From positions 1,240,001-1,304,000 of the forward strand of contig NZ_AP017560.1 in assembly GCF_003967015.1 (NCBI RefSeq): a stretch of 64,000 bases of DNA, in the 5' to 3' direction. Position numbers and translations under genes: made by a program. The notes under the pieces were generated by a model. It saw only the letters and a list, made by a program, of their open reading frames with translations. It did no database searches and had not been told where the DNA came from. Source of the DNA: Pseudanabaena sp. ABRG5-3. Lineage in GTDB: Bacteria > Cyanobacteriota > Cyanobacteriia > Pseudanabaenales > Pseudanabaenaceae. Below, piece after piece: positions 1,338 through 17,453 of the stretch (the first letter of the stretch is position 1; every line of letters starts with the position of its first letter).

Positions 1338-1352
1338 AGCAGCAATAGATAT

Positions 1353-3164
1353 TTAGAATTGAGGATTAGCTGGAGGTGGAGAGATGAAAATCGCGATCGC
1401 ATTGTGGACAGGGGCAATCTCAGTTATAGGACGATTGAGGATATTGCCACCGAGGAACAGAGTGGAAGAACTACCTCCATCGAGATTTAGCGCATCAACT
1501 GCACCGAGCTTTCTGAGAACTTCCGCAGTTTGCAACAGATTAGGGGCAACGCCTTCAGGAGCCGCTTGCACTGTGGCGAGAAGTAGTTTGCCTTTTTCCT
1601 TGGTGGTAGCGATCGCACTGCGATCGGCAGCTTGGGTATCAAAACCTGCTTGGAAAGTTTCTAATTTGCCATCTAGGGATATATTGCCATTTTTCAGTAA
1701 CAGGGGCCCCGCACCAATCAAGTTAGGAAAGTTAGAAAACTTTTCGGGAACGAAGGCTTGACGACCGCGCACGGTCATTCCCACAGGTAATTGTTTTGCT
1801 GCTTCAGGAGATTGTCTTGCCACTAAAACATACCCATCACTAGGAATGGCAACCTGTCCCACCCCGACTGCACCACCTTGGTACTGAGCAACTACGCGAT
1901 CGCCACGGACTACGATCAGCAATTCATTTTCAGTCAATGGCGTATAACCACTGCCCCAGTTGGGAGTATAACGAGCAATTCCGCGTTGGACATAGCCGCT
2001 ATTGAGATTTGTGAGCGTGATTTTGGTTTGATTGGCAGTAGTAATTTCTTCAGTGAAGTTGAGGCGATCGATTAGTGTCTCTCCCTTCTCATTCCACGCG
2101 ATCGTACCTCTGACTAGAGCCGTTCCTGCAATCCAGCGATTACCTTCACGGATTGCACCTACGGGTAATTGACGAATCCGATTAAAGAATCCTCCATTAA
2201 TCGCGCCTACCGCTTGAACTTTTTCCACCATTTGCGGCACTGGTAATAAACCGAGGATACCATTGGGTGAGCCATCGGGATTACTCCAAATCGGACGTAA
2301 TTTTAGCCTTGGTTGCTTGAGATCAACTTCCAAAGCTGTAACGGAGAACTTAATCGTTTTGGGATCTTTATCCGTTTTCGGTTTATTGGGAATCTCGACA
2401 ATTTTTTCAATTCTCTTTAATCCATCAGCCCATTGCACCGTGAGACTCGGTGGTACATAGTCACGGCGCAGATCAATCACCATGCGGGGCGTGGGACTAC
2501 TCAAAAGCTCGATCGCAGGATTAATCGCCTCATTAGTATCAATCTGAATTTGGGTTAATTTGCCCTGTTGTTGCACCGTTACCGATTTCACCAGATTGCC
2601 TGCGGTGGTATTTGTGCCAATCGGTTGATCGGCAGCCATCTCTGCTGACACCACGACATTAATCACATTACCCTGATGACTCACTCGCCAAGGAGTACGC
2701 CGATTGAGATCAATCACAAGGCGATCGCCCCAAGCCTGTTTACTGCGCCGCACCGCCTGTATTTTCGTGTCAGGAGTGTAAATATTGAGGGAATTGCCAA
2801 TAATTTCTGTCCGCCATTGCTCGGCAAAGGGAGTGAGATCGAGATAGCGAAATCTCCCTGTACTATCAAAAGCTACTCGCGAAAAGGTAGGGCTAGAAAA
2901 CCAGCGCACCCTTTGGCGATCGGCTTTTTCGGAATCCATCATCTGCACACCTAAGCCACCCGTCAGCCAGTCTTCCTGCACATACAGATTTTGCTGTCCC
3001 TGTTCCACTCGCCTGATCCATCGTCCTGACCAAGGCTGTCCATTGAGTTGAATTACATTGCCGCTCTCAGGTACGGGGGCGGAAGGAGCGCTATCCGCAA
3101 TGAGAAATTGGCTAAAACTGACAGCAATAAGGGAAATTAGCGTTTTATGGTATGTCATTTTCAT
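1353..3164 (-). CDS. Exported phosphodiester glycosidase-family protein with AMIN-like N-terminus
   Basis: This 603-residue protein starts with a signal peptide (MKMTYHKTLISLIAVSFSQF, cleavage likely near SAP at about 25). Residues 30-250 hold repeated beta-rich stretches such as DRLVIDLNRRTPWRV and PRMVIDLRRDYVPP. These resemble AMIN domains, which bind peptidoglycan or localise envelope proteins. Residues 270-600 match the phosphodiester glycosidase (NAGPA/DUF2233) family: AINGGFFN near the start of the domain, then LIGAGPLLLKNG, and a C-terminal LNLDGGSSSTLF. The role is therefore inferred to be envelope glycan processing in the periplasm. The gene could share a transcript with the ferredoxin-MBL gene just downstream. 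The exact substrate cannot be read from sequence. Confidence 0.8.
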   Translation of the reverse strand: MKMTYHKTLISLIAVSFSQFLIADSAPSAPVPESGNVIQLNGQPWSGRWIRRVEQGQQNLYVQEDWLTGGLGVQMMDSEKADRQRVRWFSSPTFSRVAFDSTGRFRYLDLTPFAEQWRTEIIGNSLNIYTPDTKIQAVRRSKQAWGDRLVIDLNRRTPWRVSHQGNVINVVVSAEMAADQPIGTNTTAGNLVKSVTVQQQGKLTQIQIDTNEAINPAIELLSSPTPRMVIDLRRDYVPPSLTVQWADGLKRIEKIVEIPNKPKTDKDPKTIKFSVTALEVDLKQPRLKLRPIWSNPDGSPNGILGLLPVPQMVEKVQAVGAINGGFFNRIRQLPVGAIREGNRWIAGTALVRGTIAWNEKGETLIDRLNFTEEITTANQTKITLTNLNSGYVQRGIARYTPNWGSGYTPLTENELLIVVRGDRVVAQYQGGAVGVGQVAIPSDGYVLVARQSPEAAKQLPVGMTVRGRQAFVPEKFSNFPNLIGAGPLLLKNGNISLDGKLETFQAGFDTQAADRSAIATTKEKGKLLLATVQAAPEGVAPNLLQTAEVLRKLGAVDALNLDGGSSSTLFLGGNILNRPITEIAPVHNAIAIFISPPPANPQF

Positions 3165-3236
3165 GATGCTAAACGGTGACTAATTTGCGTGATGTTGAGG
3201 GCATCAAAGAGGTCATCAAAACTATGCAGAAATAAT

Positions 3237-4289
3237 TTAAGGCGCAGGATTAAAGTAGCGGGCATGAACTTGGTCGATTTCGGCTAAAATCTCAGTATTT
3301 AGCTGTACTTTAGCACTGTCGATATTTTCCTTGAGTTGTTCCATCGTGGTTGCGCCAATAATTGTACTGGTAACAAACCACCGACTTCGCACAAATGCTA
3401 GCGCCAATTGGGTTGGAGATAAATCATATTTTTTTGCGATCGCTGCATATTCCGCAGTCGCCGCCTGTACATTTACCTTCTTATAGCGCTGTCCAAACTG
3501 CGGGAATAGGGTAATACGGGTATTGCTAGGCGAACCTTGGACATATTTGCCTGAAAGATGCCCAAATCCCAAAGGACTATAGGCTAGTAGCCCCACTTGC
3601 TCACGATAGCAAGCTTCGGTTAGCCCCATTTCAAAGGTGCGATTGATCAGGTTATAGGCATTTTGAATCGAGACAATTTTCGGTAAACCTAACTGCTTGG
3701 CAGTATGGCTAAATTCGCTAAGGCCCCAAGGTGTTTCATTGCTAACTCCCAAATGACGAATTTTACCTGCTTGAATTAGTTCCGCAAATGTGGCTAATTG
3801 ATCGGAGATCGCCACCATTTCCCGCTCATTTTGTGGCTCAAATGTGACCTGCCCAAACATCGGTACATTGCGATCTGGCCAGTGGATTTGATAAAGATCG
3901 ATATAGTCAGTTTGCAATCTCTTGAGGCTATCATCAACTGCTTGCAAAATATTTTTACGACTTAAAGCCGCGATCGAGTCATCTCGTAACCAACTGTAAT
4001 TACGACCTGTGCCAATAATTTTGGTAGCAATAATTAATTTATCTCGTTGTTGCTTAATGTGTGGTTGGGCTAGCCATTCCCCAATATATTGCTCAGTTCT
4101 ACCCTGCGTTGCTGCATTGGGTGGGACTGGATACATTTCTGCCGTATCAATAAAGTTAATCCCCCGTGCGATCGCGTAGTCTAGTTGCTCATGGGCTTCG
4201 GCGATCGTGTTTTGCTGTCCATAGGTCATTGTCCCTAGACATATTTCTGATACTAACAGTTCACTTGTGCCAAGTCTCTTGTATTCCAT
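3237..4289 (-). CDS. Aldo/keto reductase (Tas-like)
   Basis: The 350-residue protein has the full aldo/keto reductase barrel: MEYKRLGTSELLVSEICLGT at the start, FIDTAEMYP with the catalytic Asp and Tyr, then YIDLYQIHWPD, GVSNETPWG and a C-terminal SRWFVTSTIIGATT NADPH-binding segment. The long insertion after the Tyr motif and the LYQIHWPDR sequence resemble the Tas/YghZ-type group rather than the shorter xylose-reductase group. It should act in the cytoplasm as an NADPH-dependent carbonyl reductase; the physiological substrate is unknown. The start ATG at 4289 matches the family's N-terminus. It appears to be a single-gene unit. Confidence 0.88.
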   Translation of the reverse strand: MEYKRLGTSELLVSEICLGTMTYGQQNTIAEAHEQLDYAIARGINFIDTAEMYPVPPNAATQGRTEQYIGEWLAQPHIKQQRDKLIIATKIIGTGRNYSWLRDDSIAALSRKNILQAVDDSLKRLQTDYIDLYQIHWPDRNVPMFGQVTFEPQNEREMVAISDQLATFAELIQAGKIRHLGVSNETPWGLSEFSHTAKQLGLPKIVSIQNAYNLINRTFEMGLTEACYREQVGLLAYSPLGFGHLSGKYVQGSPSNTRITLFPQFGQRYKKVNVQAATAEYAAIAKKYDLSPTQLALAFVRSRWFVTSTIIGATTMEQLKENIDSAKVQLNTEILAEIDQVHARYFNPAP

Positions 4290-4429
4290 GTTTGATGCAC
4301 ATACATTGCAAACATAACAATACTATGGAAGTCTATCTTCAGATTAGCAAATAGTTCTATGTGATTTCGCGATCGCTAATTTCCCAGATCCTATCAAAGA
4401 ATGTCGGCAATTGGCAGTTACGGAAATTT

Positions 4430-4456
4430 TTGACCAAAATATCGAAATGCTATAAT
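4430..4456 (+). promoter_or_regulatory. Candidate sigma70-type promoter for the Uma2 gene
   Basis: A TTGACC hexamer at 4430-4435 and a perfect TATAAT at 4451-4456 are separated by 15 bp, slightly less than the optimal 17. The gene start follows 37 bp later. Only the pattern supports it; no transcript data are available. Confidence 0.35.
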
Positions 4457-4493
4457 AATTGCCACAGTAAACAGATAACTATTAGTGATAACG

Positions 4494-5045
4494 ATGTTGC
4501 TAGATATCCGCTTAATATCAGTTGCAGAATATCATTCTATGGGTGAGCTAGGTATTCTAAATCCTGATGAGAAAGTGGAACTGTTAGCGGGGCAAATTGT
4601 CAAAAAAGCTATGAAGGGAACGCGACATACATCCACAAATAAGCGTATAGAAAAAGTTTTAGAGAATCTTTTAGGCGATCGCGTATTGGTAAGAACACAA
4701 GATCCAATTAGACTGGACAATTATTCGGAGCCAGAGCCAGATGTGGCGCTTGTAGTTCCCAATCTTTCTTTTTATGCCGATCATCATCCCACACCATCAG
4801 AAGTTTATTTAATTATTGAAATAGCCGATACGACTCTGCGACAAGACTGTGAGTACAAGGCTAAGCTCTATGCCCAAGCGGGTATTGAGGACTATTGGGT
4901 ATTAGATATTAATAATCGTCAGCTATATGTTTTTCGATTACCAAGTCCAGAGGGATATCTCTCCCGCCAAGTACTATCTGATGGCGAGGTGATTTCTCCT
5001 CTAGCATTTCCTGATATTAAGGTATCGATATCTGATTTCTTGTAA
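4494..5045 (+). CDS. Uma2 family protein (DUF820, restriction-endonuclease-like fold)
   Basis: This 183-residue protein belongs to the Uma2/DUF820 family, which is greatly expanded in cyanobacteria. It has the expected PD-(D/E)xK-like pieces: EPEPDVALVV, then YLIIEIADTT, then YKAKLYAQAGIEDYWVLDI. The ATG at 4494 is preferred over a GTG nine bases upstream because the family begins close to this point. Members are thought to be nucleases on structural grounds, but their biological role is unsettled. It stands alone between an aldo/keto reductase and the secretion-like locus on the opposite strand. Confidence 0.8.
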   Translation: MLLDIRLISVAEYHSMGELGILNPDEKVELLAGQIVKKAMKGTRHTSTNKRIEKVLENLLGDRVLVRTQDPIRLDNYSEPEPDVALVVPNLSFYADHHPTPSEVYLIIEIADTTLRQDCEYKAKLYAQAGIEDYWVLDINNRQLYVFRLPSPEGYLSRQVLSDGEVISPLAFPDIKVSISDFL

Positions 5046-5117
5046 ATTAGTATTGGGGAAAAGATGGAGATCGCTCAGATCCTCAATTTTTTAAATAGGT
5101 GATCGCTACTCCTACAA

Positions 5118-5867
5118 TTATTTCCCACCCATTAATGTGGGTTGCTCTGGTAAATCACGTTCTCTCTTATATTCTTCTCTTTTCTTTTCCTCTTCAATTT
5201 CCTGCCAAGTATCAAGTTGCTCAAAGTTAGAACTAATGCCAAATTTGTCTTTTACTTGATCGGAAATGTCTGTAATTATTGCAGGAGCAGAATCCTCTGG
5301 TAAGTTCGGATTTTTGGCAATCATTTCATCGTAAACAGCGATCGCTGGCGCAATAATCTCATCGTAATTTTTCACCAAACCACCACATAGCATCGTTATA
5401 AAGATCATGCTGCTTGCTGTACCTTTCCTTAGCACTCCGATGGTTTGGTAAAATCGGTTAGTAATGCCATTGATAAGTGTATCTAGTGGTGAATTATCTG
5501 TATTATTTGGTGCAGCCTGACTACTTACCGATGTGGAATTAGTACTTCCCATTTGGATTGGTAAGTTAGCACTGAGAATTTCGGAAATAGCCCCTAAGCC
5601 ATAAACCTGTTCGGCAATTTGAGTTTTCTTGTCCAGATACTCACTGGTTTCTTCATAAGTTTTAATTGTAATTTTAGTTTTATCTACAAATTCCTCCCAA
5701 AAATCATGAACGAAGTCTGAATACTGATCGTCACGCCATGTTGATTCAAGGTTATGCCATTGGTTTATTAATCTGCTAAATTCTTGATTTAATACGTCTC
5801 TCAGATTTTGCAATTGTCGAGATAGTTCTTGGGCATCTTCAATATCAAACTTTGTCTGTACTGCCAT
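5118..5867 (-). CDS. WXG100-like protein with C-terminal extension (candidate type VII-like substrate)
   Basis: This 249-residue protein has an N-terminal helical hairpin of about 95 residues aligned with the neighbouring 97-residue protein: QWHNLESTWRDDQY here against QWANLRSCWHDDQY there. The turn reads W44-R-D46, where a canonical WXG protein has W-x-G. After a low-complexity linker rich in Ser, Asn and Thr (about 105-130) comes a second helical segment containing a hydrophobic stretch, SSMIFITMLCGGLV. The tail is highly charged and ends TLMGGK. Long WXG proteins with extra C-terminal domains are often effectors or substrates of type VII-like machines, so that is the inferred role. No YxxxD/E export signal was seen. 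The start lies 3 bp after the upstream stop, so the two are co-transcribed. Confidence 0.6.
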   Translation of the reverse strand: MAVQTKFDIEDAQELSRQLQNLRDVLNQEFSRLINQWHNLESTWRDDQYSDFVHDFWEEFVDKTKITIKTYEETSEYLDKKTQIAEQVYGLGAISEILSANLPIQMGSTNSTSVSSQAAPNNTDNSPLDTLINGITNRFYQTIGVLRKGTASSMIFITMLCGGLVKNYDEIIAPAIAVYDEMIAKNPNLPEDSAPAIITDISDQVKDKFGISSNFEQLDTWQEIEEEKKREEYKRERDLPEQPTLMGGK

Positions 5868-5870
5868 AGC

Positions 5871-6164
5871 CTAAAGTCCTTTTAAAGCTCCCAATTTAGC
5901 CCTACGCTCTTCGGCAATGCGAACTTGGTCACGCATGAATGAGATAAATTCTTCAGATTCTTTCTGGCTATCTTTGTGGGTTGTAGTTAGTTTTTCATAG
6001 AGTGGTTCAAAGGTTTGGTACTGGTCATCATGCCAGCACGATCGCAGGTTTGCCCATTGATTTTCCACCCTTGACCAGTCTTGTTTCATGACTTGATGAA
6101 AGTTTTCCAATTGCTTGAGTAAGTCTTTTGCATCATCAAGATCGAATGTAGTTTGTGCTGCCAT
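5871..6164 (-). CDS. WXG100-like small helical protein
   Basis: This 97-residue protein fits the WXG100 size and shape: two predicted helices separated by a turn at W44-H-D46. It is clearly a paralogue of the N-terminus of the next gene, sharing the DD-A--L--QL-N start and the QW-NL-S-W-DDQY segment. The turn Gly is replaced by Asp, so the strict WXG motif is lost while the Trp is kept. Canonical members are secreted as dimers through FtsK/SpoIIIE-type ATPases. A role as structural partner or substrate of the ATPase encoded upstream is inferred from gene order only. Confidence 0.6.
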   Translation of the reverse strand: MAAQTTFDLDDAKDLLKQLENFHQVMKQDWSRVENQWANLRSCWHDDQYQTFEPLYEKLTTTHKDSQKESEEFISFMRDQVRIAEERRAKLGALKGL

Positions 6165-6199
6165 AATGTCCTCTTCTAGTTCTATTTAGCCTTGGAGAA

Positions 6200-6219
6200 C
6201 AAGGGGCTTAAGCCCCTTG
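6200..6219. repeat. Perfect 20-bp palindrome between WXG100-like genes
   Basis: The stretch CAAGGGGCTTAAGCCCCTTG is a perfect palindrome lying between the 90- and 97-residue WXG100-like genes. In RNA it could form a short stem. It lacks a clear U-tract on the coding strand, so it is more likely a processing or attenuation element than a full terminator. Confidence 0.5.
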
Positions 6220-6225
6220 CCTGTT

Positions 6226-6498
6226 TTAATTTCTTTCAAATTCTTCGACTATTTCCAAAAAGCGCTCTAGCCATTTTTTAGCATCATCACCCGCGTCAAG
6301 CGCAGATTGAGTTGTCTTAGTTGTTTCTTCAAATTCTTTGGTAAAGCGTTCTTTGGATTCGCCTTGCCAAGACTCATCACACTTCTTCCATTTGGCTTCT
6401 AGTTCCTTAAACTCATCACCAACTTGTCTCTGGAAATTACCCAACACATCGATAAACCGACTGAGTTCATCAATATTGACATCTATATCTCTTGCCAT
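6226..6498 (-). CDS. WXG100 family protein (canonical WXG motif)
   Basis: This 90-residue acidic protein shows the classical ESAT-6/WXG100 pattern: a first helix, W37, then the turn W44-Q-G46 in CDESWQGESKERF, and a second amphipathic helix to the C-terminus. Length and motif position match the family exactly. No YxxxD/E signal occurs after the second helix. It sits 182 bp downstream of the FtsK-like ATPase gene on the same strand and is the strongest single sign that the locus is related to type VII secretion. Whether it is exported is unknown. Confidence 0.72.
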   Translation of the reverse strand: MARDIDVNIDELSRFIDVLGNFQRQVGDEFKELEAKWKKCDESWQGESKERFTKEFEETTKTTQSALDAGDDAKKWLERFLEIVEEFERN

Positions 6499-6559
6499 GA
6501 ATTTCTCCTGTTGTATGAATTTACAAATATTCTGTAATGATTGCTCTGCAATGAATACC

Positions 6560-6670
6560 CTGCAATAAATTGCGGGCTGAAAGCTTAAACCCGTTGAAAC
6601 GGGTTGATCTTTAAATACCAGTCAGTTTTAACTGACTTAAGCTTTGAGCCAAGAACTTTAGTTCTTGGTA
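6560..6670. repeat. Cloverleaf-like palindromic repeat between the ATPase and WXG100 genes
   Basis: Several small palindromes are nested here. A closing stem pairs GGCTGAAAGCTTAA (about 6575-6588) with TTAAGCTTTGAGCC (6637-6650) with one mismatch. Inside it are an AACCCGTT/AACGGGTT hairpin at 6588-6605 and an AGTCAGTT/AACTGACT hairpin at 6620-6637. Just outside is a CCAAGAAC/GTTCTTGG hairpin at 6649-6668, and a GCAAT/ATTGC hairpin starts the block. The arms are different from each other but each is perfect, which suggests a conserved folded RNA or a mobile palindromic repeat. I recall similar elements between cyanobacterial genes but cannot confirm a match. Confidence 0.6.
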
Positions 6671-6680
6671 TGGATTGCAA

Positions 6681-9600
6681 TTACTCCCTTTTCTGTTCTA
6701 AATAATTTACATAGGTTGCAAATTCCTGTTTAGTTGGAATGGCGTATGGTTTGAATTTCTCCAGATTAGCGGCTGTGGCTTCATCTTTGAAATAGGCGCG
6801 AAGTTTAGTGAGATTGGCGGCTAGGGTTTCATTGAATAAAGCACGGGAGTCATCGGTAGGCATAGTTAAGCCAATCCGTAGGTCGAAATTGCTGAGGGAA
6901 ATACGCTCTTTCCCTGCAAATAGTTGATTTAAGGTTTTGATACCTTCTACCCAGAGAATTAGATGAATACCCAGTTCTGCACCCTGCGAGGCGATCGCCA
7001 TTAATTTCTTCGCATCATCGGACATATCGGGATTACCGCGATTGTCAACGGTGGGGCGCAAGCTATTGAGGCGTTCTAATGTGCCGATCGCTGCCACAAA
7101 AAAGATGGAAGCACCAAAATTAGTCATATCGGGATCGGCTTCGCGCATTTGCTTACGGCGCTCGAATTCGGCGTGAATATTTTGCAGGGTAGTATTTGCT
7201 TTGCTGATTTGGCGATCGCGGTCGGCGAAGTCTTTAGCGATCGTGATGGGGAAATAGGTTGAGAAGGCTTCAAGGAAATTAAGGGTCATGCTTGACCAGT
7301 GACTACCGCGATCGTCTTCATCGGAGAGGTCGATGATGTGAAATTCGGCTTTTTGGGGTTGATGGCTGGCAACAAGGCTGGTCAAAACGCCGCCGAGGAT
7401 ACCAAAGATATTTTCTTCGATGTTGCCGACTATAAGCATATTGCTGCGGCTACGGCGGCGGAAGATGGCGCGGCTATGGTAGCCGATTTGCATCGCTTCA
7501 CCGACCCATGCAATGCTGGGAAAGTCTCGTACGCGCCAGTTAGACTCGTTGATAACATCCTTGATATCCGCAGGACTGAGCCAAGTATCAGCCGATGCTA
7601 AAACTGTTAATAGTCCATTATTGCGGAGGCGGGTGGGATGTCTACCATCAAAGACCACTAGCTGATCGGTGGGTGGGCGTTGGTAGCCATTGGCTTGTAC
7701 GGTTTCTTGGATTTTGCGTAGGGCTTTTTTGCGTTGATCTGTGGAGGCATCGGCAACTTGACCGATTTCGTTACTGCCTTTGCGCCCAAAGTCAGAGTTG
7801 TAAATAATCCGTCCTGGGCGATCAAGTAAATCGACAGCATCGGTATTTCCTTCTGCTAAGGTCATGGCAGCAACATTTTGATTCATCTGCATTGCCATTC
7901 GCAGATCGATTAGGTCATAGACACTGCGGGTAATGTTTTTGATATTGGGAGATTGAGAAGCTAACAGTAAGTGAATCCCAAAAGCGCGACCTTTTTTAAC
8001 AATGGTGTCAAAGATTTGGTTTAGCTCTGCGGAGATGCTGTCGTTGTCTTCAAATAAAACCTGAAACTCATCAATGACGATGAGAATACGCGGCATTTTC
8101 TTGCCATTGGTTTTGTTGCGATATTCGGCAACCTTGGTAATGTCATTGGATACCGATTTCCATTCGTTAGCCCGAATCTGGAACTGCTCATTGACTTTAC
8201 GCAAGACGCTCAAACCAAACTCGCGATCGCTTTCAATCGAGATGACTTTAGCATGGGGTAATGCTTTTGTAAGATCGAGATCATTAGAAGAGCCAGAATC
8301 TTCACCGCGATCGGGATCGACATAGACTTGAAATTCTACGCCCTCTTTGAAGTCAAGTAGATACAGTTCCAATTCATCAGGAGCATAGCGCATCGCTAAC
8401 CCATTGATAATGCTGTGCAAGGTGTAGCTTTTACCTGCCCCCGGTTTACCAAATAGCAGCGATTGACTGACTTCTAAACCCTTGGGATTTTGTCCTAACC
8501 AGAATTCTAGTTTTTCTCGCGCACCTGCGACACCGATCGCTGTGCGAATTTCACCACGACTATCGCTTGTCCATAGGGTTTCTGGGTATAGCTGCGAGAA
8601 GGCAACGGTGTCAACTTTGACTTCACCACTAGCTTTGCTAATCATGGCGGTGAGTTGGTTAAAGCGATCGCTTTCGGGTGGTTTGTCTAATGTGGCATAG
8701 CAAACGATGCTAGAAATTTTATTAAAAGTATTTGAGCGATCGGGCAAGTTTGAATATATTTGCTTAAACTGTGAGCGATTTAAACTAATTTCTAAATGTA
8801 ATGGTCTTTCTTGAGTCGCGGTAATATACGGCAAATTAATTTCAGTTTCGCCTGCTGTCGAAAGTTCAATTTTAGCCATTTCCGCAGCCTCATTCAGACG
8901 TTGTAAAGCTGACCGATCCTTACGGAGATCCACGCCATAGGTTATTAAAAATGCTTTAACAATATAATTTACAATTTGAAGCTTGACATCATCATCACCA
9001 GCTAAATGCGTATCATCTTCTTTTGTGTTAATTGCAGTTACTTCAGGGAATTCATAAACAAACAGTGGCTCGCCATTGTAGGACTTCCCTGCGGATCGCA
9101 AAATCTGGCAATGTGCTTTGAATAGGTCGTAATTAAAGTTGCGGGGTTTTTCGAGGGTTTCGTCAATGTGAATGATTGTGTAAACCCCTGCTCTGGAACC
9201 ATTGACTAGAAGGCTATTGAGATATTCAAAAGATTTGTTGTCAAATTTGCTAGGAAAGTCGGCAATAAACAGATAACGATAAGCCTCTTGAATCGCTTCG
9301 GCGGCAGCGTTGTAGGCTTCGATATTATCGAAATCACGGCTGAGATAGTTTTGGATGACTTGCTCAGTATGCCCAATCAGTTTATGCAGTTGTTCTTGAA
9401 TGTCATCGCTGGTTGTGTAGGTGCGCTTGCCGCGTATTTCTTCGGGTATACTCTTGAAGGGGAAGGTATTGCCCATGCTAACAGGATCGATAAAGATCCC
9501 TTGTAGCTTACGGACTGGGAATGTTGCTATAGCGCGTAAGGCGATCGCTTCAAGGGCGGCAGTTGCGGCTTGTCTGGTTTCAGGGCTATTGGTGAAGATG

Positions 9601-10256
9601 GCAATATGTCCAGAATCCTTTCCTTTCTTGAAAGTTCGGCATTGTAATAATAGAGGCAGTTGATCTAGGCTCAATTCAATTTCTTTTCTCGTCAGCAATT
9701 TACGAAGTGGTTCTGCATGAGAAAATTTACCCAGATCAAACTCAAACTTATTTTGCTTTCCTTTAATCACCCGCAGAGTCCCAGTCCGAAGTAACATTGG
9801 TGCGAGTCCTTCTATTCTGGGAGTATATTTGTTTGCTACAGTATCTTTCCACCAACGCTCGTCTTCCCAAGATGCGCTAACTTGTCTAGAGGGAGTATCA
9901 AGGAATTGGCGCTCTCCATTAACAATTTCAATAATACGATCAAGCAATAAATGAGATCCAGATATTGTGCGTGATGATTCAGCCAAAACACTGGCTAGTT
10001 CATCTAACAAAACTCCATCAGCTCTGTCTTTTACAAGTTGAATATATGCTAGGACTAAAGATAGACAATGAGTCAATTCCCGTTGAATTTTTCTTGCTTG
10101 AATTTCAAATTTTTGTTCGATAGAAAGCAATTCTTGTCGATGAGCATCTTTCAACTTAGGAACAATTCTTTCTCCTTGCTCGAACTCATCTGTAAGTGTC
10201 TGAATCGTTTGCGCCAGCTTAATTCGTTGTGAAATAATCGAAAAGATATTAGCCAT
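6681..10256 (-). CDS. FtsK/SpoIIIE-type ATPase of a type VII-like locus, three tandem modules
   Basis: This is a 1191-residue soluble protein with no predicted membrane segment. Residues 1-120 are helical and coiled-coil-like. Three stretches then look like FtsK/HerA ATPase modules. The first (about 195-370) lacks a P-loop (FTNSPETRQA at that position) and has YLFIADFP at the Walker B position. The middle (about 570-860) is intact: Walker A GKPGAGKS near 600-607, Walker B RILIVIDEF near 722-730, and LLLASQSP as a sensor-like motif. The third (about 920-1120) has VGNIEENIFG and SIFFVAAIG without Lys or acidic residues. Three modules in one chain recall EccC/EssC, the motor of type VII secretion. 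Unlike those, it has no N-terminal membrane anchor or FHA domain. It is followed by three WXG100-like genes, so it is inferred to recognise or move them. Confidence 0.75.
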   Translation of the reverse strand: MANIFSIISQRIKLAQTIQTLTDEFEQGERIVPKLKDAHRQELLSIEQKFEIQARKIQRELTHCLSLVLAYIQLVKDRADGVLLDELASVLAESSRTISGSHLLLDRIIEIVNGERQFLDTPSRQVSASWEDERWWKDTVANKYTPRIEGLAPMLLRTGTLRVIKGKQNKFEFDLGKFSHAEPLRKLLTRKEIELSLDQLPLLLQCRTFKKGKDSGHIAIFTNSPETRQAATAALEAIALRAIATFPVRKLQGIFIDPVSMGNTFPFKSIPEEIRGKRTYTTSDDIQEQLHKLIGHTEQVIQNYLSRDFDNIEAYNAAAEAIQEAYRYLFIADFPSKFDNKSFEYLNSLLVNGSRAGVYTIIHIDETLEKPRNFNYDLFKAHCQILRSAGKSYNGEPLFVYEFPEVTAINTKEDDTHLAGDDDVKLQIVNYIVKAFLITYGVDLRKDRSALQRLNEAAEMAKIELSTAGETEINLPYITATQERPLHLEISLNRSQFKQIYSNLPDRSNTFNKISSIVCYATLDKPPESDRFNQLTAMISKASGEVKVDTVAFSQLYPETLWTSDSRGEIRTAIGVAGAREKLEFWLGQNPKGLEVSQSLLFGKPGAGKSYTLHSIINGLAMRYAPDELELYLLDFKEGVEFQVYVDPDRGEDSGSSNDLDLTKALPHAKVISIESDREFGLSVLRKVNEQFQIRANEWKSVSNDITKVAEYRNKTNGKKMPRILIVIDEFQVLFEDNDSISAELNQIFDTIVKKGRAFGIHLLLASQSPNIKNITRSVYDLIDLRMAMQMNQNVAAMTLAEGNTDAVDLLDRPGRIIYNSDFGRKGSNEIGQVADASTDQRKKALRKIQETVQANGYQRPPTDQLVVFDGRHPTRLRNNGLLTVLASADTWLSPADIKDVINESNWRVRDFPSIAWVGEAMQIGYHSRAIFRRRSRSNMLIVGNIEENIFGILGGVLTSLVASHQPQKAEFHIIDLSDEDDRGSHWSSMTLNFLEAFSTYFPITIAKDFADRDRQISKANTTLQNIHAEFERRKQMREADPDMTNFGASIFFVAAIGTLERLNSLRPTVDNRGNPDMSDDAKKLMAIASQGAELGIHLILWVEGIKTLNQLFAGKERISLSNFDLRIGLTMPTDDSRALFNETLAANLTKLRAYFKDEATAANLEKFKPYAIPTKQEFATYVNYLEQKRE

Positions 10257-10321: not shown

Positions 10322-10894
10322 TTAGTAAGCATTTGAGCGCCACCAGAACATCGCAATAACTGCAATGATCGCACCCCAAGCCCCACCGATAGTTCCAACA
10401 ACAAGCGCTCCAAAAAGCAAGAGTGACTCTATACCAATAGATGTATCTAACTCTCTTAGCTCTTTCTCCGACTGAGTTATCCGAATTTCAGTAGACGATA
10501 ATTTGTTGTAGGCTGACTTTAGCTCAGATTCTTGATTCTTAATTAGCTCTTCCAATCCTTTTTTAGCTTTTAGATCGTGGTTTACAAAGTCTGTAAGCGA
10601 TAAGTATAAATCCTGAGTAAAAACACCAAATTTCTCTTCATCAGAAAGATTATTAGCAAACTTTTGAGACTTTAAATGTTCGACAACAGAATCAAAACTA
10701 GGTATCTGCAACTCGTTTTCACTGACGTGTCCAGAAGCGCTTAAGCACATACCTTTCTTTTCAGAGAATTGGTTGACACACGTTTCATAATGCTCTTTTT
10801 CTGAACAGAGAACATTCCAAGCATTAGCAATTTGTTTTAAAGAAACTTGTTGGGTGATCTGACAAGAAAGATCTGTTTGGCTATCTGTTGTCAT
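10322..10894 (-). CDS. Hypothetical protein with coiled coil and C-terminal membrane segment
   Basis: I do not recognise this 190-residue family. The N-terminal half is soluble and has four Cys (including CVNQF and MCLSASG). Residues 110-150 are charged and heptad-like (coiled coil). The C-terminus, residues 153-187, is hydrophobic and glycine-rich (LLLFGALVVGTIGG then IIAVIAMFWW), either one long or two short membrane helices. It is the first gene of the run leading into the FtsK-like ATPase, 65 bp upstream on the same strand. Because the ATPase has no anchor of its own, this protein is a candidate membrane tether, which is inference from position and topology only. Confidence 0.55.
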   Translation of the reverse strand: MTTDSQTDLSCQITQQVSLKQIANAWNVLCSEKEHYETCVNQFSEKKGMCLSASGHVSENELQIPSFDSVVEHLKSQKFANNLSDEEKFGVFTQDLYLSLTDFVNHDLKAKKGLEELIKNQESELKSAYNKLSSTEIRITQSEKELRELDTSIGIESLLLFGALVVGTIGGAWGAIIAVIAMFWWRSNAY

Positions 10895-11331: not shown

Positions 11332-11706
11332 TTAGTCATCCAACATAGGGTAGATAAACTCTATAAATTTTTGGGCTTCAAAAATAGCCTCTAATGCTTC
11401 CTCTTTAGTTGGCTCAAACCGAATATTGTAATCACTCATCTGTTGGTCATCGTAAGCACTTGCTAAAGATTTTGCTAAATCATTACTAATTTTGCCAGTC
11501 TTCACAAAATGTAAACCTAATAACTTGAAAAGCCCCCTATGAGTAGAAGCCTCAAAATCCTCTGAAAGCAACAAGGCTTGAGACATATAGTACATCGCAT
11601 AATAAGACCGTGATAAGTACAATCGATAACGTCCTGCCTTTACCAAAAGCTCTGCCGTCTCAATCTCTTCATTTGCCAATGCTATAAATTTCTGAATATC
11701 TGTCAT
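11332..11706 (-). CDS. HEPN domain protein (UPF0332-like), toxin partner of an MNT-HEPN module
   Basis: The 124-residue all-helical protein has the features of the UPF0332/HEPN group: AGRYRLYLSRSYYAMYYMSQALL in the first helices and QQMSDYN in the third. HEPN proteins paired with nucleotidyltransferases are usually RNases neutralised by the partner. The RNase motif R-x4-6-H typical of HepT is not evident, so this may be a non-nuclease variant. The start overlaps the stop of the upstream MNT gene as ATGA, a classic coupled module. Confidence 0.75.
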   Translation of the reverse strand: MTDIQKFIALANEEIETAELLVKAGRYRLYLSRSYYAMYYMSQALLLSEDFEASTHRGLFKLLGLHFVKTGKISNDLAKSLASAYDDQQMSDYNIRFEPTKEEALEAIFEAQKFIEFIYPMLDD

Positions 11707-12068
11707 AGCGCGATCGCTTCACGGCGTACTTTACTCGCAAAAGATGCCGAGCGATCGCTAAACTCCTCTAGCGACATTGGCATAATCGAAACCAACTCTC
11801 CAAACTCCAACAAAAAATGTAAGCGAATATCTGCCATCCGCCGAACCTCTTGGACTGGCAAAACTTGCCCTTTTAGAACTACTAACACATCAATATCTGA
11901 ATCAGCAGTTGCTTCGCCTCTAGCAACAGAGCCGTATAGCAACACTGAAAATAGGCGATCGCCATACAGCTCTTGCAATTGTGATTTTAGTTCTTGCAAA
12001 AGAAACTGTAAGCGATCGCTAATATTTAGAGTGTTAGTGAGCATAAATTTAGCAATATCTAAGCCCAA
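11703..12068 (-). CDS. MNT-type nucleotidyltransferase, antitoxin of the HEPN module
   Basis: This 121-residue protein carries the minimal nucleotidyltransferase signature LLYGSVARGEATADSDIDVLV: Gly-Ser, then Asp-x-Asp metal ligands. In MntA-HepT systems the enzyme modifies the HEPN toxin with AMP and so inactivates it. That role is inferred from pairing with the adjacent HEPN gene. The N-terminal eight residues may be an over-extension; an ATG at 12044 (MLTNTLNISD) would also be reasonable. The gene is separated from metK by a strong terminator. Confidence 0.78.
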   Translation of the reverse strand: MGLDIAKFMLTNTLNISDRLQFLLQELKSQLQELYGDRLFSVLLYGSVARGEATADSDIDVLVVLKGQVLPVQEVRRMADIRLHFLLEFGELVSIMPMSLEEFSDRSASFASKVRREAIAL

Positions 12069-14192: not shown

Positions 14193-15359
14193 ATGCCCCA
14201 AACGATCGCCGATATTAATGACAAAATCAGAGCTGGTAAGGCTAAAGTCCTGACTGCAACTGAACTTAAAACCCTTGTTGCCGAGATTGGGGTTACGCAG
14301 GCGACAAAGAAAGTCGATGTGATCGTTACAGGCACATTCGAGCCAATGGAATCATCGGGGGCAATTCTCAATTTAGGACATACCGATCCACCGATCAAGA
14401 TTCGCACTTGTTGGATTGATGGTGTACCTGCCTATGCGGGATTTGGCGCTGTTGATATTTATTTAGGCGCAACCCAAGAACCAGAGGCTAATGATGAAGG
14501 TGTCCAAAATCGTGGCGGCGGTCATGTGATTGCGGATTTAATTGCAGGGAAGACAGTTAATTTTAAAGCGATCGGGCATCCTAACGATTGCTATCCTCGC
14601 GCTAATTTTGAGACGACAATTACGAAGGATTCGATCAATCAGTTCTATCTCTTTAACCCTCGCAATCTCTATCAAAATTTTATTGTGGGTGTCAATGGAG
14701 GTGAGGAAACTCTTTACACCTATTTGGGTCCTCTTCAGCCGCGATTAGGAAATGCCGTTTATTCTAATCCGGGGGCAATTTCACCACTATGGAATGATCC
14801 TGATTTGCAATTGATTGGGATTGGTACACGTATCTTTATGGGTGGTGGTATTGGTTATGTGGCATGGGAAGGAACCCAACATTTCCCATTGCAAAAGCGT
14901 TTAGAGAATCGTACTCCTATTGGTCCTGCGGCGACTCTGGCGCTAATTGGTGATGCTAAGCAAATGACCCCTGAATGGGTGCGTGGTTGCTATTTCCGTA
15001 ATTATGGTGCTTCGCTAATGATGGGTGTTGCCGTGCCGCTACCTGTGATTAATGAGGAAGTGGTAGCAAAGGCGGCTGTACTAGATGAACAGTTGGTTGC
15101 ACCTGTGATTGATTTCTCGATTCCCCGCAGAGTTCGTCCGATCTTTGGTTCGGTTTCCTATGCGGAACTTAAGTCTGGCAAAATTCCGATCGCAGGTACG
15201 ACTGTTCGCACTGCGCCTCTTGCTAGCTTGCATCTATCGGAGGAAGCGGCGAAGACTCTCAAAGATTGGATTGTCAAGGGAGATTTCACTCTAACAGAAC
15301 CTGTGGCGATGTTGCCAAGCGATCGCACTTTTTTACCGCAAGATTTACGTGGTTTTTAA
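14193..15359 (+). CDS. DUF39 homocysteine biosynthesis protein
   Basis: The 388-residue protein is a full-length member of the HcyBio/DUF39 family. Diagnostic stretches include SSGAILNLGHTDPPIKIRTC, GGGHVIADLIAGK, IFMGGGIGYVAWEGTQH and GVAVPLPVINEE. In methanogens and some bacteria this family helps convert aspartate semialdehyde plus sulfide to homocysteine. Archaeal forms may have an added CBS or ferredoxin partner; none is fused here. The cytoplasmic role in sulfur assimilation is inferred from the family. Closeness to metK fits the methionine/SAM cycle. The stop is 8 bp before the next gene, the CHAT-TPR protein, so they may be co-transcribed although unrelated in function. Confidence 0.88.
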   Translation: MPQTIADINDKIRAGKAKVLTATELKTLVAEIGVTQATKKVDVIVTGTFEPMESSGAILNLGHTDPPIKIRTCWIDGVPAYAGFGAVDIYLGATQEPEANDEGVQNRGGGHVIADLIAGKTVNFKAIGHPNDCYPRANFETTITKDSINQFYLFNPRNLYQNFIVGVNGGEETLYTYLGPLQPRLGNAVYSNPGAISPLWNDPDLQLIGIGTRIFMGGGIGYVAWEGTQHFPLQKRLENRTPIGPAATLALIGDAKQMTPEWVRGCYFRNYGASLMMGVAVPLPVINEEVVAKAAVLDEQLVAPVIDFSIPRRVRPIFGSVSYAELKSGKIPIAGTTVRTAPLASLHLSEEAAKTLKDWIVKGDFTLTEPVAMLPSDRTFLPQDLRGF

Positions 15360-15367
15360 TTTGCATT

Positions 15368-16744
15368 ATGACCGATCCCTTAGCTGAAAAAATTGGTATT
15401 AATGTGCAGGGCGTTACTGTGAATGTGCAGAATCTGAATGTCGGTATTGCGGAACGGTTAGAAAAATCAGGCGATCGCGTTAGAATTTTGGTAGTAGCAG
15501 CAAGTCCTTTGGGAGCTTCTCCTCTGCAACTAGATCGTGAGGTGAAAACGATCCAAGAGGCGTTAAGGCGATCTCGCAAACGGGATAATTTTGAGGTGGA
15601 ATATCGGCTGGCGGCGACACCTTCAGAATTACGTCGTGCTTTGTTGGATTTGGAACCCCATGTTTTACATTTTAGCGGTCACGGTTCGGGAGAGCAGGGT
15701 TTGCTGTTTGTGAGTGATGAGTCGGCAAGTGCGATCTATCGTTCTGAGGGTGGCGAGGTGCGATCGCGTTCGACTAATTCTAATGAAATTAAATTTGTTC
15801 CCGCGCAACCCTTGGCTAATTTGTTGCAGCTTTGCGATGAGCATTTGGAATGTGTGGTTTTGAATGCTTGTTATTCGGATGTACAGGGTGATGCGATATC
15901 AGCAAATATTCCCTTTACGATTGGGATGCGTGATGTGGTTGAGGATAATGTGGCGATTAAGTTTTCGCAGGGTTTTTACGATGCGATCGGATCGGGGAAG
16001 GGTTATGAAAGTGCTTTTAAATGGGGAAAGGTGGCGATCGAGTTCGATCTCGTTAACAATGAAGCATCTCAAATTCTCGTACTGAGAAAAAAAGGTGAAT
16101 CTTTTTCTCAATCTAGTCCTGTTGTGACGATGATTCCTCTCGAACCTGAACTACCCACATCTGATCGCTCTCTTTCAGCTAATGAGTATTTTAATCGCGC
16201 CCTTGAAAAATCGAAAAAAGGAGACAAAAATGGAGCGATCACCGACTACAACGAAGCCATCCGCCTCAATCCTAATAATTCTATTACTTACTACAATCGT
16301 GGGGTAGCGAAGTATGACTTAGGAGACAAAAACGGAGCGATCACCGACTACAACGAAGCCATCCGCCTCAATCCTAATAATTCTATTACTTACTACAATC
16401 GTGGGGTAGCGAAGTATGACTTAGGAGACAAAAACGGAGCGATCACCGACTACAACGAAGCTATCCGCCTCAATTCTAATTATGACAAAGCTTACGACAA
16501 TCGCGGGTTTGTGAAGTATAACTTAGGAGACAAAAACGGAGCGATCGCTGACTACAACGAAGCCATCCGCCTCAATCCTAATAATGCTAATGCTTACTAC
16601 GATCAAGGATTAATAAAACGAGAAAGAGGTAAAAAGCAAGAAGCATTGGCATATTTTCGGAAAGCATCTGAACTCTATCAACAGCAAGGCAATACAGAAT
16701 CGTATAACAACTCTCGCGATAGAATTAAAGAACTAGGAGGATGA
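15368..16744 (+). CDS. CHAT-domain protease-like protein with C-terminal TPR repeats
   Basis: From the ATG at 15368 the protein is 458 residues. Residues 1-35 form a short hydrophobic-polar segment (GINVQGVTVNVQNLNVG) typical of cyanobacterial CHAT proteins. Residues 37-265 are a caspase-like CHAT domain with catalytic candidates His105 (HFSGHGSGEQG) and Cys168 (VVLNACYSD). Residues 275-455 hold about five TPR units; four share nearly identical 34-residue sequence (GAITDYNEAIRLNPNN). CHAT proteins are cysteine proteases or scaffolds, some acting in defence and cell death. A longer frame begins upstream at 15266 inside the previous gene, but only the ATG after that gene's stop is sensible. Confidence 0.85.
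   Translation: MTDPLAEKIGINVQGVTVNVQNLNVGIAERLEKSGDRVRILVVAASPLGASPLQLDREVKTIQEALRRSRKRDNFEVEYRLAATPSELRRALLDLEPHVLHFSGHGSGEQGLLFVSDESASAIYRSEGGEVRSRSTNSNEIKFVPAQPLANLLQLCDEHLECVVLNACYSDVQGDAISANIPFTIGMRDVVEDNVAIKFSQGFYDAIGSGKGYESAFKWGKVAIEFDLVNNEASQILVLRKKGESFSQSSPVVTMIPLEPELPTSDRSLSANEYFNRALEKSKKGDKNGAITDYNEAIRLNPNNSITYYNRGVAKYDLGDKNGAITDYNEAIRLNPNNSITYYNRGVAKYDLGDKNGAITDYNEAIRLNSNYDKAYDNRGFVKYNLGDKNGAIADYNEAIRLNPNNANAYYDQGLIKRERGKKQEALAYFRKASELYQQQGNTESYNNSRDRIKELGG
16221..16628 (+). repeat. Four tandem 102-bp units in the TPR region
   Basis: Units begin with GAGACAAAAAYGGAGCGATC at 16221, 16323, 16425 and 16527, exactly 102 bp apart, each encoding one 34-residue TPR. The first two are almost identical over their whole length, which points to recent duplication by slippage or unequal crossing-over. 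Confidence 0.9.
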
Positions 16745-16803: not shown

Positions 16804-17061
16804 ATGAGTACCTTATTAACTAAAGTTTTAGCCGACGCAATACAACTCACCCCGCAAGAGCAATTACAATTAATTTCGCATTTGATGAATACTTGGCAGC
16901 AACCACCGCACCTTAATGAAATATCTAATCAAATATCTACCGATAAAACTACTACAAGCCCAACATTAAGCCGTAAACATCTTTTTGGCTGTATGCAAGG
17001 CAAAATAAAAATGGCTCCAGATTTCGATGCTCCCCTTGCTGATTTTGCTGAGTATATGTGA
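16804..17061 (+). CDS. Antitoxin of a VapBC-like module (DUF2281-type)
   Basis: The 85-residue protein starts with a short helical segment (LTPQEQLQLISHLMN) that resembles the DUF2281-type antitoxin N-terminus. It ends with RKHLFGCMQGKIKMAPDFDAPLADFAEYM, the toxin-binding tail often seen with PIN toxins (a GxMKGK-like motif followed by DFDAPL). The stop overlaps the toxin ATG by one base (TGATG). It is inferred to bind and inhibit the PIN toxin and to repress the pair. Confidence 0.82.
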   Translation: MSTLLTKVLADAIQLTPQEQLQLISHLMNTWQQPPHLNEISNQISTDKTTTSPTLSRKHLFGCMQGKIKMAPDFDAPLADFAEYM

Positions 17062-17453
17062 TGAAATTATTATTGGATACACATATTTTGATTTGGTTGT
17101 TAGAGGGCAATCAAAACCTTAGCCCTAAAGTCAGACAGGTAATAGAAGATGAAACCAATAGCCTGTATCTTAGCATAGTGAGCTTATGGGAAATTGCGAT
17201 CAAAACTAGCCTTGGTAAACTCCAATTAGAACTTCCACTAGAAAAAATTATCTGTGATTTTGTGTTGCCCAGTGGAATCAAGATTTTACCAATTGATATT
17301 GCACATTTACTAACACTACAAAACCTACCATTTCACCATCGAGATCCATTCGATCGCCTATTAATAGCTCAAGCAAAATCAGAAACTTTAACCTTAGTTT
17401 CTGAAGATCATATCTTTCGGCAATATCAGGTAAATGTAATTGGACAGAAGTAA
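17061..17453 (+). CDS. vapC: PIN-domain toxin, VapC-like
   Basis: The 130-residue PIN protein has the four expected acidic positions: LLDTHILIWLL (first Asp), SLWEIAIK (Glu), HRDPFDRLLIAQA (two Asp) and TLVSEDHIF. The DTHxxxW start and HRDPFDR motif place it in the subgroup of cyanobacterial VapC-type RNases. It should cleave RNA, commonly tRNA, when released from the antitoxin. The ATG at 17061 is used; a GTG one codon upstream is possible but lies inside the antitoxin. Confidence 0.85.
   Translation: MKLLLDTHILIWLLEGNQNLSPKVRQVIEDETNSLYLSIVSLWEIAIKTSLGKLQLELPLEKIICDFVLPSGIKILPIDIAHLLTLQNLPFHHRDPFDRLLIAQAKSETLTLVSEDHIFRQYQVNVIGQK

Follow-up and report, generated by a model that had tools for sequence, protein, structure and literature searches.

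The cyanobacterium Pseudanabaena sp. ABRG5-3 carries, on the minus strand of the 64,000-nucleotide stretch analysed here (the window; positions 1,240,001 to 1,304,000 of contig NZ_AP017560.1), a gene for an FtsK/EssC-like ATPase of three modules. It probably encodes an EccC-like motor for the export of WXG100 proteins which, in this genome, has captured in frame the part of dnaK that specifies lobe IIB. The product matches Pfam FtsK_SpoIIIE (E value, 9e-21) and NCBIfam EccCa (6.6e-24), the latter at 84.6 bits, far under the cut-off of 509.15. An earlier, sequence-only reading of this DNA described the three modules but not the DnaK lobe, and it is the lobe that is unusual. The ATPase gene divides as follows; dN is nonsynonymous divergence and AF2 the structure predictor AlphaFold2.

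6681..10256, minus strand: FtsK/EssC-like ATPase, 1191 amino acids, three modules (uninterrupted open reading frame [ORF] with Pfam and NCBIfam matches)
9867..10256, minus strand: N-terminal region, helical and coiled-coil-like, residues 1-130; hypervariable between orthologues (AF2 helix 2-78; dN)
9048..9659, minus strand: module 1, degenerate FtsK-like, residues ~200-403 (profile matches; no P-loop)
8712..9047, minus strand: insert, DnaK/HSP70 lobe IIB, residues 404-515, 112 amino acids (Pfam, NCBIfam, and fold match)
7767..8612, minus strand: module 2, canonical FtsK module, residues ~549-830, by profile the EccC D1 counterpart (fold match to the FtsK motor)
8427..8450, minus strand: Walker A GKPGAGKS, residues 603-610 (sequence; G606, G608, K609, and S610 invariant)
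8064..8084, minus strand: Walker B LIVIDEF, residues 725-731 (sequence; D729 and E730 invariant)
6684..7655, minus strand: module 3, degenerate FtsK-like, residues 868-1191 (profile matches)

A DnaK lobe within the first module

The insert lies near the end of degenerate module 1, at a point that is a variable loop in homologues, and the last strand of the module picks up again after it, at about residue 517. It matches Pfam HSP70 at 1.5e-20 and NCBIfam DnaK at 3.3e-29, aligning to positions 210-309 of the 625 in the DnaK profile. This is lobe IIB only; the other lobes and the substrate-binding domain of DnaK are absent, and the LGG of DnaK has become LAG. When module 1 was modeled together with the insert, the lobe reached a predicted local distance difference test score (pLDDT) of 81-88 over most of its length and 62-63 at its ends, with values below 50 outside it. 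The predicted lobe superposes on DnaK with a DALI-scale Z score of 16.7 and a root-mean-square deviation (rmsd) of 1.2 Å over 87 amino acids, so in the model, the insert still folds as lobe IIB. To our knowledge, Hsp70 lobes are not usually found outside Hsp70 and actin-fold proteins. Here, one has been transferred to a motor protein belonging to another fold class.

How widespread is the insert? The family set consisted of the window protein and 15 others (10 cyanobacterial, 1 Deinococcus, 2 Rhodococcus, 1 Caballeronia, and 1 Helicobacter), representing five phyla. Two orthologues, from P. biceps PCC 7429 and Pseudanabaena sp. FACHB-1998, read VYESPE-TQIVCYATLD and VYESPE-APIICYATLD across the site, with nothing between. 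In the alignment, the insert is absent from all 10 other cyanobacterial members, these two and eight more distant ones. An Hsp70/DnaK search of the loci, whose queries included the DnaK reading frame of L208 (locus handles are given where loci must be told apart), found no DnaK piece in the ATPases of the 15 other members. Over all 16 loci, the only matches were the window ATPase, a separate Hsp70 in L125, and a separate dnaK in L069. Searched against plasmid, phage, and viral contigs, the insert found ordinary DnaK-like matches only.

Origin of the insert and selection upon it

Over 231 nucleotides, the insert is 0.779 identical to its nearest genus dnaK (L013) and 0.701 identical to that of the host itself (L002). 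In a tree of 23 genus dnaKs and two outgroups, it groups with L011, L013, L016, L020, and L023, away from the host branch, at an ultrafast bootstrap of 86, which is below the usual threshold for that measure and accompanies a long insert branch; in a codon tree, the insert branch ran to its limit. The donor was likely, with moderate support from these comparisons, a Pseudanabaena dnaK clade other than that of the host, and the host's own dnaK was rejected as the donor since the insert is nearer this other clade. In this stretch, 11 positions distinguish the genus dnaKs of the present type from eight dnaKs belonging to other types or genera; at these positions, the insert agrees with the genus residue 5 times and with the alternative residue 3 times, and it carries a private residue at the remaining 3. 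Both junctions are in frame, and the 5' junction shares a short TGAAG(T) with dnaK. The P. biceps contig that carries the operon also has a dnaK, about 11 kb away (G015:C28:30423-30713). The corresponding segment of this dnaK (L218) is 0.714 identical to the insert, and it was rejected as the nearest donor on that identity.

Has the lobe been under selection since its capture? Measured against 21 genus DnaKs, 23 of its 77 residues are private, most of them at invariant positions, while among codons for the same residue, 3 of 54 are private, a silent count that is a lower bound given that the 21 dnaKs vary widely at silent sites. Such a ratio fits relaxed, neutral, or positive change. The pairwise dN/dS against L011 is nonetheless about 0.25 (0.216/0.881), and in neutral simulations started from each of three dnaKs, the amino acid identity of the insert was higher than in 2,000 of 2,000 runs, a procedure that charges the silent changes of dnaK itself to the insert and so overstates constraint. 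Synonymous divergence from both orthologues falls across the insert, from 0.57-0.92 in module 1 (residues 201-405) to 0.27-0.41 after it. This drop may mark a recombination boundary.

Only the middle module keeps its Walker motifs

As the sequence-only reading had it, three FtsK-like modules can be made out and only the middle one is intact, the P-loops of modules 1 and 3 having been lost. At the places expected for the P-loop and Walker B, module 1 has TNSPETRQ and YLFIADFP, and module 3 has GNIEENIFG and SIFFVAAIG. The further claim that both flanking modules lack the Walker B acids is correct for module 3, where zero Walker residues are left, but goes slightly too far for module 1, whose Walker B Asp (D333) is nearly invariant in the cyanobacterial alignment; there, it is the catalytic Glu that is lost.

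Is this pattern peculiar to the window protein? A scan for [AG]xxxxGK[ST] found exactly one site per protein in all 16 members, always in the middle module, and no module 1 P-loop in the window protein or the 15 others. The flanking motifs were therefore lost long ago and throughout the family, and the idea that their loss is peculiar to the window protein was rejected. For the four remotest members, the module 3 alignment is loose; in the Rhodococcus pseudokoreensis ATPase, the module 3 profile detects nothing at that position (independent E value [iE], 0.77).

The arrangement had been called uncommon, a description overtaken both by its presence throughout the family and by its publication in 2024. 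The accessible part of Bell et al. 2024 (PMC11090510) describes EssC-like ATPases in which three ATPase domains occur and activity is predicted for the central one alone. These proteins have an N-terminal coiled coil in place of the FHA and transmembrane (TM) regions, lack TM segments, and are accompanied by two WXG100 proteins, one of them without WxG. The stand-alone mobile WXG100/FtsK operon is credited there to an earlier paper, Anantharaman et al. 2012. The triple-module layout with a single active module is thus of a kind already in print, and the window adds a cyanobacterial branch to the published family.

The predicted structures confirm the three-module fold in part, and profile comparison (below) supports all three modules. 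The whole-protein AF2 model is poor (mean pLDDT, 49). Its middle module is confident over most of its length, its N-terminal helix (residues 2-78, in what is a weak model) and parts of module 3 are confident in places, and module 1 is confident hardly anywhere. The AF2 input alignments contained three family members only. Module 2 of the model aligns to the FtsK motor with a Z score of 20.6 over 226 amino acids. Modules 2 and 3 together align to the tandem domains of EccC/EssC (4nh0 and 5fv0) over 365 and 369 residues, at an rmsd of about 24 Å that reflects large domain shifts.

The modules as the probable start of an EccC series

Which domains of EccC do the three modules represent? Profiles were built from a smaller set of 12 proteins and from a larger set of 15, in which the two Rhodococcus, the Caballeronia, and the Helicobacter proteins were added and the window row was left out. 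Three Streptomyces proteins served as the EccC yardstick; in two of them, G..G.GK[ST] occurs in D1 only, and in the third, it occurs in D1 and D3. E values are for the larger set unless stated otherwise. Module 2 matches EccC D1 at 3.8e-29, D2 at 7.1e-20, and D3 at 1.2e-13, and the order is the same in the smaller set; on this profile evidence, the active middle module corresponds to EccC D1. Modules 2 and 3 are related to each other at 4.8e-13. Module 3 is best labeled D2, although less surely, because its nearest EccC domain is D2 in the larger set (1.7e-8, with D1 at 2.9e-6 and D3 at 8.1e-5) and D1 in the smaller one (2.3e-6, with D3 at 2.2e-4 and D2 at 2.6e-4).

The smaller module 1 profile showed no relation to anything it was compared with (E values of 0.03-0.64). 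With the larger set, module 1 matches module 3 at 4.4e-5 (147 columns in register; probability, 69%), EccC D2 at 4.8e-4 (32%), and module 2 at 9.5e-4 (22%), and it matches weakly D1 (0.013), the EccC domain of unknown function (DUF) (0.02), and D3 (within 0.013-0.03). None of the reversed-profile controls in this comparison did better than 0.06. The proposal that module 1 is unrelated to FtsK was rejected on the first three of these matches. According to the accessible part of PMC11154593, the DUF of EccC is a degenerate, ATPase-like domain ahead of D1. Module 1 sits at that position and is FtsK-like, yet its profile is nearer D2 than the DUF.

Because the middle module matches D1 and the DUF of EccC precedes D1, the degenerate-active-degenerate order would be the start of the normal EccC series, and the protein is best read as D0-D1-D2, a numbering that may also suit the published family better. 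The sequence-only reading had seen in the layout the loss of the N-terminal module that matters in EccC/EssC motors, and a possible sign of a different coupling mechanism. Neither suggestion finds support here: the active module itself appears to be the D1 counterpart, behind a degenerate module, and the series reads as an ordinary EccC beginning.

The WXG100 operon and a probable membrane anchor

The ATPase gene stands second in an operon, followed by three WXG100 or WXG-like genes, in the order of transcription:

10322..10894, minus strand: 190-amino-acid protein with a C-terminal membrane hairpin, probable anchor (hydropathy up to 2.12 at residues 149-184)
6681..10256, minus strand: the ATPase
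6226..6498, minus strand: WXG100 protein a, 90 amino acids, WQG motif (Pfam WXG100, 1.3e-7, above the cut-off)
5871..6164, minus strand: WXG100-like protein b, 97 amino acids, WHD replacing WxG (Pfam WXG100, 0.026, below the cut-off)
5118..5867, minus strand: third WXG-like protein, 249 amino acids, with a long C-terminal part (Pfam WXG100, 0.11, below the cut-off)

WXG100 a is the sole above-cut-off WXG100 protein in the whole genome. It also gave a weak match to the GrpE profile (0.094), which was taken as coiled-coil noise rather than as GrpE likeness. L035 and L036 share this gene order, and a WXG100 b-like ORF occurs in both of these and in L067-L071. L067-L071 also contain both small WXG genes, other genes being interposed in L067, L068, L070, and L071. 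These interposed genes include, between the ATPase and WXG100 a, small ORFs that look nucleotidyltransferase-like (by reading only), with a second small ORF in three of the four loci. In L069, a Ser/Thr kinase with an ARC6-like domain and a beta-lactamase-fold protein (4062-6569) lie between the WXG genes. In L070 (9202-9945) and L071 (5377-6099), a GNAT acetyltransferase domain forms the end of the third WXG protein (best Pfam matches, 5.6e-8 and 1.3e-9), which suggests that its effector ends are exchangeable.

How might the motor be held at the membrane? The earlier remark that it has no membrane anchor is right for this polypeptide, in which no hydrophobic segment reaches 1.6 (Kyte-Doolittle, 19 residues), and the hairpin gene directly precedes it. 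A C-terminal hydrophobic segment is found in the pre-ATPase gene of the window, L035, L036, L069, L072-L074, and the Deinococcus locus. None was seen in the upstream ORFs of L067, L068, and L070, although the L070 ATPase ORF itself begins with one, and in L071, the hairpin region and the ATPase are fused in one 1206-amino-acid protein. In a comparison of 12 sequences, the window hairpin protein matches the pre-ATPase ORFs of L035 and L036 (2.5e-25 and 3.2e-24) and, weakly, the upstream ORFs of L069 and L067 (0.0003 and 0.002), with no significant match to the fused L071 N terminus. The latter in turn matches the upstream ORFs of L067, L068, and L070 (4e-21 to 3e-38). Three homology groups emerge, namely window/L035/L036, L067/L068/L070 with the L071 N terminus, and L072-L074/Deinococcus, with weak links between groups. 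Because homology is clear only within groups, it is on position and layout that the hairpin protein is taken to be the probable membrane anchor in trans.

The N-terminal part of the ATPase evolves quickly: dN over residues 1-120 is 0.72-0.79 between the window protein and the two orthologues, compared with 0.002-0.05 over modules 2 and 3. Across the first 200 residues (window 9657-10256), dN is 0.2-0.8 between close relatives.

Proposed mechanism and competing explanations

The gene would thus encode the motor of a small, type VII-like WXG100 export operon, an EccC-like ATPase shortened to three modules, D0-D1-D2. By analogy with the FtsK and EccC families, the motor would most likely be hexameric. 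ATP would be consumed in the middle ring only, with the two dead rings positioning the substrate and partners, and the hairpin protein would tether the motor to the membrane. About 320 bp of Pseudanabaena dnaK would have been inserted in frame into the variable loop near the end of dead module 1. If used, the lobe would most likely dock GrpE or another Hsp70 partner that delivers substrates to the motor. Docking is a minority possibility, a tolerated passenger insertion being somewhat more likely.

What might dock there? Lobe IIB contacts GrpE in solved complexes, according to the accessible parts of PMC10803776 and PMC11685456, and in the Mycobacterium tuberculosis complex, the GrpE-contact residues of DnaK include E236 and Y257, a double mutant of which is nearly blocked in refolding (PMC10803776). 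By offset, these residues correspond to an E and a Y within the insert (aligned with E. coli E264 and Y285), while Pseudanabaena dnaK has an F at the second contact position. The host genome has two GrpE matches above the Pfam cut-off, with genes near C1:4343001 and C1:233449. An R. pseudokoreensis plasmid locus (L125; NZ_CP070617.1, 68224-79615) joins such a chaperone set to the same ATPase family: at 1352-7340, genes for Hsp70 (1.8e-132), a J-domain/TPR protein (J domain, 1.3e-8), and GrpE (1.4e-15) stand directly before the ATPase. That ATPase belongs to the family by modules 1 and 2 (iE, 1.4e-8 and 2.4e-58); unlike in the window, the chaperones there are separate genes, the ATPase is without a DnaK piece, and module 3 is not detected. 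A working docking site for GrpE or an Hsp70 cofactor, coupling chaperone-held WXG100 clients to the motor, is accordingly a tentative idea. Its fuller form is somewhat more doubtful: the motor would have captured the GrpE-facing lobe of DnaK and would recruit the Hsp70 cycle to its dead first ring, where chaperone-held WXG100 clients are handed over, and the Rhodococcus relative would make the same connection through Hsp70, J-domain, and GrpE proteins that are encoded separately.

A number of results weigh against this picture of motor and lobe as a whole. G. kaustophilus DnaK likewise binds GrpE but carries D and F at the two contact positions, and in PMC10803776, as far as the accessible text goes, GrpE variants mutated at the lobe IIB contacts bound to DnaK like the wild type, the mutant of greatly reduced affinity mapping instead to the long N-terminal helix of GrpE, which touches lobe IA and the substrate-binding domain, parts that the insert lacks. 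Because of these two points, the kept E and Y prove little and are compatible evidence only. The Hsp70/J/GrpE neighborhood occurs in 1 of the 16 family loci and in 0 of the 11 cyanobacterial ones, and the dnaK of L069 was rejected as an operon member, since it is a gene of its own, set apart by two genes on the opposite strand. Only one genome is known to have the insert, whose position in the dnaK tree has the modest bootstrap and long branch noted above; its private residues outnumber its private silent codons, and apart from the middle module and the insert, both AF2 models are poor. Finally, searches of the genome for YukC/EssB and YukD, whose Bacillus subtilis controls were positive, found neither; a search for EccB gave no match in the genome, and none in any control genome either.

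Several of these results would also fit a neutral passenger, a dnaK fragment put by illegitimate recombination into a surface loop of a dead module and tolerated thanks to the short distance between the two ends of lobe IIB. The restriction to one genome, the variable loop as the insertion point, the short microhomology at the junction, and the private residues (against an undercounted number of silent changes) all favor it, and it is a serious contender that falls a little short of being probable. What it explains less well is that the frame has neither a stop nor a frameshift, that the lobe IIB fold is predicted and core DnaK residues are kept, and that identity exceeds the neutral simulations, even granting their overstated constraint. 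Could the insert instead be an error of assembly, a chimera made with a dnaK read? Its presence in a single assembly is what such an error would look like, but both ends are in frame, the insert is identical to none of the dnaKs examined, and residues unseen in 21 genus DnaKs, most at invariant positions, are unexpected from a stray dnaK read; this explanation is very improbable.

A different question is whether the operon exports anything. It might be an intracellular conflict (defence) cassette, with the ATPase driving the movement of nucleic acid or the threading of proteins within the cell. Related ATPases occur in CoCoNuT and TerY-P defence operons (PMC11090510, accessible part), a relative lies in a vWA-PP2C-kinase-CARF locus, and the PADLOC models mad8 and SspH match the ATPase core at 4.7e-16 and 2.5e-11. 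As system calls, the PADLOC matches (mad8, SspH, and HerA) were rejected, since they cover the ATPase core only. The WXG100 pair and the membrane-hairpin gene in the same operon argue for export, as does the closeness of module 2 to EccC D1, with the stretch ahead of D1 included; a defence cassette is rather unlikely. The relative just mentioned is in L110 (NZ_CP049321.1), a Caballeronia plasmid locus with vWA, WXG100, same-family FtsK, CARF, vWA, PP2C, and kinase genes that resembles TerY-P defence neighborhoods.

For a WXG100 export motor with a captured lobe, the consequences depend on what the lobe does. If functional, it would give an experimental way into the question of how WXG100 clients, folded or bound by chaperones, get to the ATPase, with the Rhodococcus locus as an independent natural case for comparison, and lobe recruitment would be the first instance, within the literature searched, of a single Hsp70 sub-lobe grafted into another motor as a docking module. 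Neither a chaperone-FtsK-WXG link nor an Hsp70 sub-lobe graft was found in the open-licence literature beyond the accessible part of PMC11090510. If not functional, the lobe would still be a clean in-frame domain insertion with a likely donor clade identified.

Comparison with known systems

The closest published relative is the EssC-like ATPase of the WXG100/FtsK cassettes of extended Type III-A CoCoNuT systems, as set out in the accessible part of PMC11090510. The two share three domains with a canonical central one, an N-terminal region that is a coiled coil there and is predicted to be helical here, an ATPase without TM segments, and a WXG100 pair of which one lacks WxG (here, WQG and WHD). 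The window differs in the membrane-hairpin gene ahead of the ATPase and in the DnaK lobe in module 1. In addition, no CoCoNuT core or vWA gene was found among the window neighbors scanned with Pfam, a subset of the ORFs in which Uma2, HEPN, and nucleotidyltransferase genes were seen. With the EccC/EssC ATPases of type VII systems, the protein shares tandem FtsK modules, a D1-like active module behind a degenerate one, and adjacent WXG100 genes. It differs from them in having a single module after the active one, the ORF stopping at residue 1191 with no D2 plus D3 pair, in its low EccCa score, and in lacking TM helices, which the neighboring gene has. A whole type VII system would further be expected to include the YukC/EssB and YukD proteins, which the searches did not find in this genome.

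The ATPase gene is accessory. Among the matches listed, close ones (E < ~3e-16) occur in 3 of 26 same-genus genomes, including that of the window. Of 386 genomes of the phylum, 51 have some ATPase match at an E value of 0.001; 6 of these (the window's own included) are at least 52% identical, 3 others are about 31% identical, and the remainder are weak. Searches of plasmid, phage, and viral contigs found no close relative of the whole ATPase, all matches being below 60% identity or restricted to small parts. A second, distantly FtsK-like ATPase of 1624 amino acids (L075; G000:C3:128214-128837) is encoded on a 152-kb contig of the same genome.

Neighboring genes

Upstream of the operon, at window positions 11332-12068, lies a HEPN and nucleotidyltransferase pair (Pfam, 8.7e-16 and 1.3e-10) in a typical toxin-antitoxin arrangement. 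Farther on, 15266-16744 encodes a CHAT-domain protein that has TPR repeats, and 17058-17453 encodes a PIN-domain protein. In a more distant branch of the family, the ATPase is followed by a JAB/MPN isopeptidase-like gene (L072, 5586-6131; Pfam Prok-JAB, 1.3e-6), and by reading, an ORF of similar appearance is present in L073 (5427-5972).

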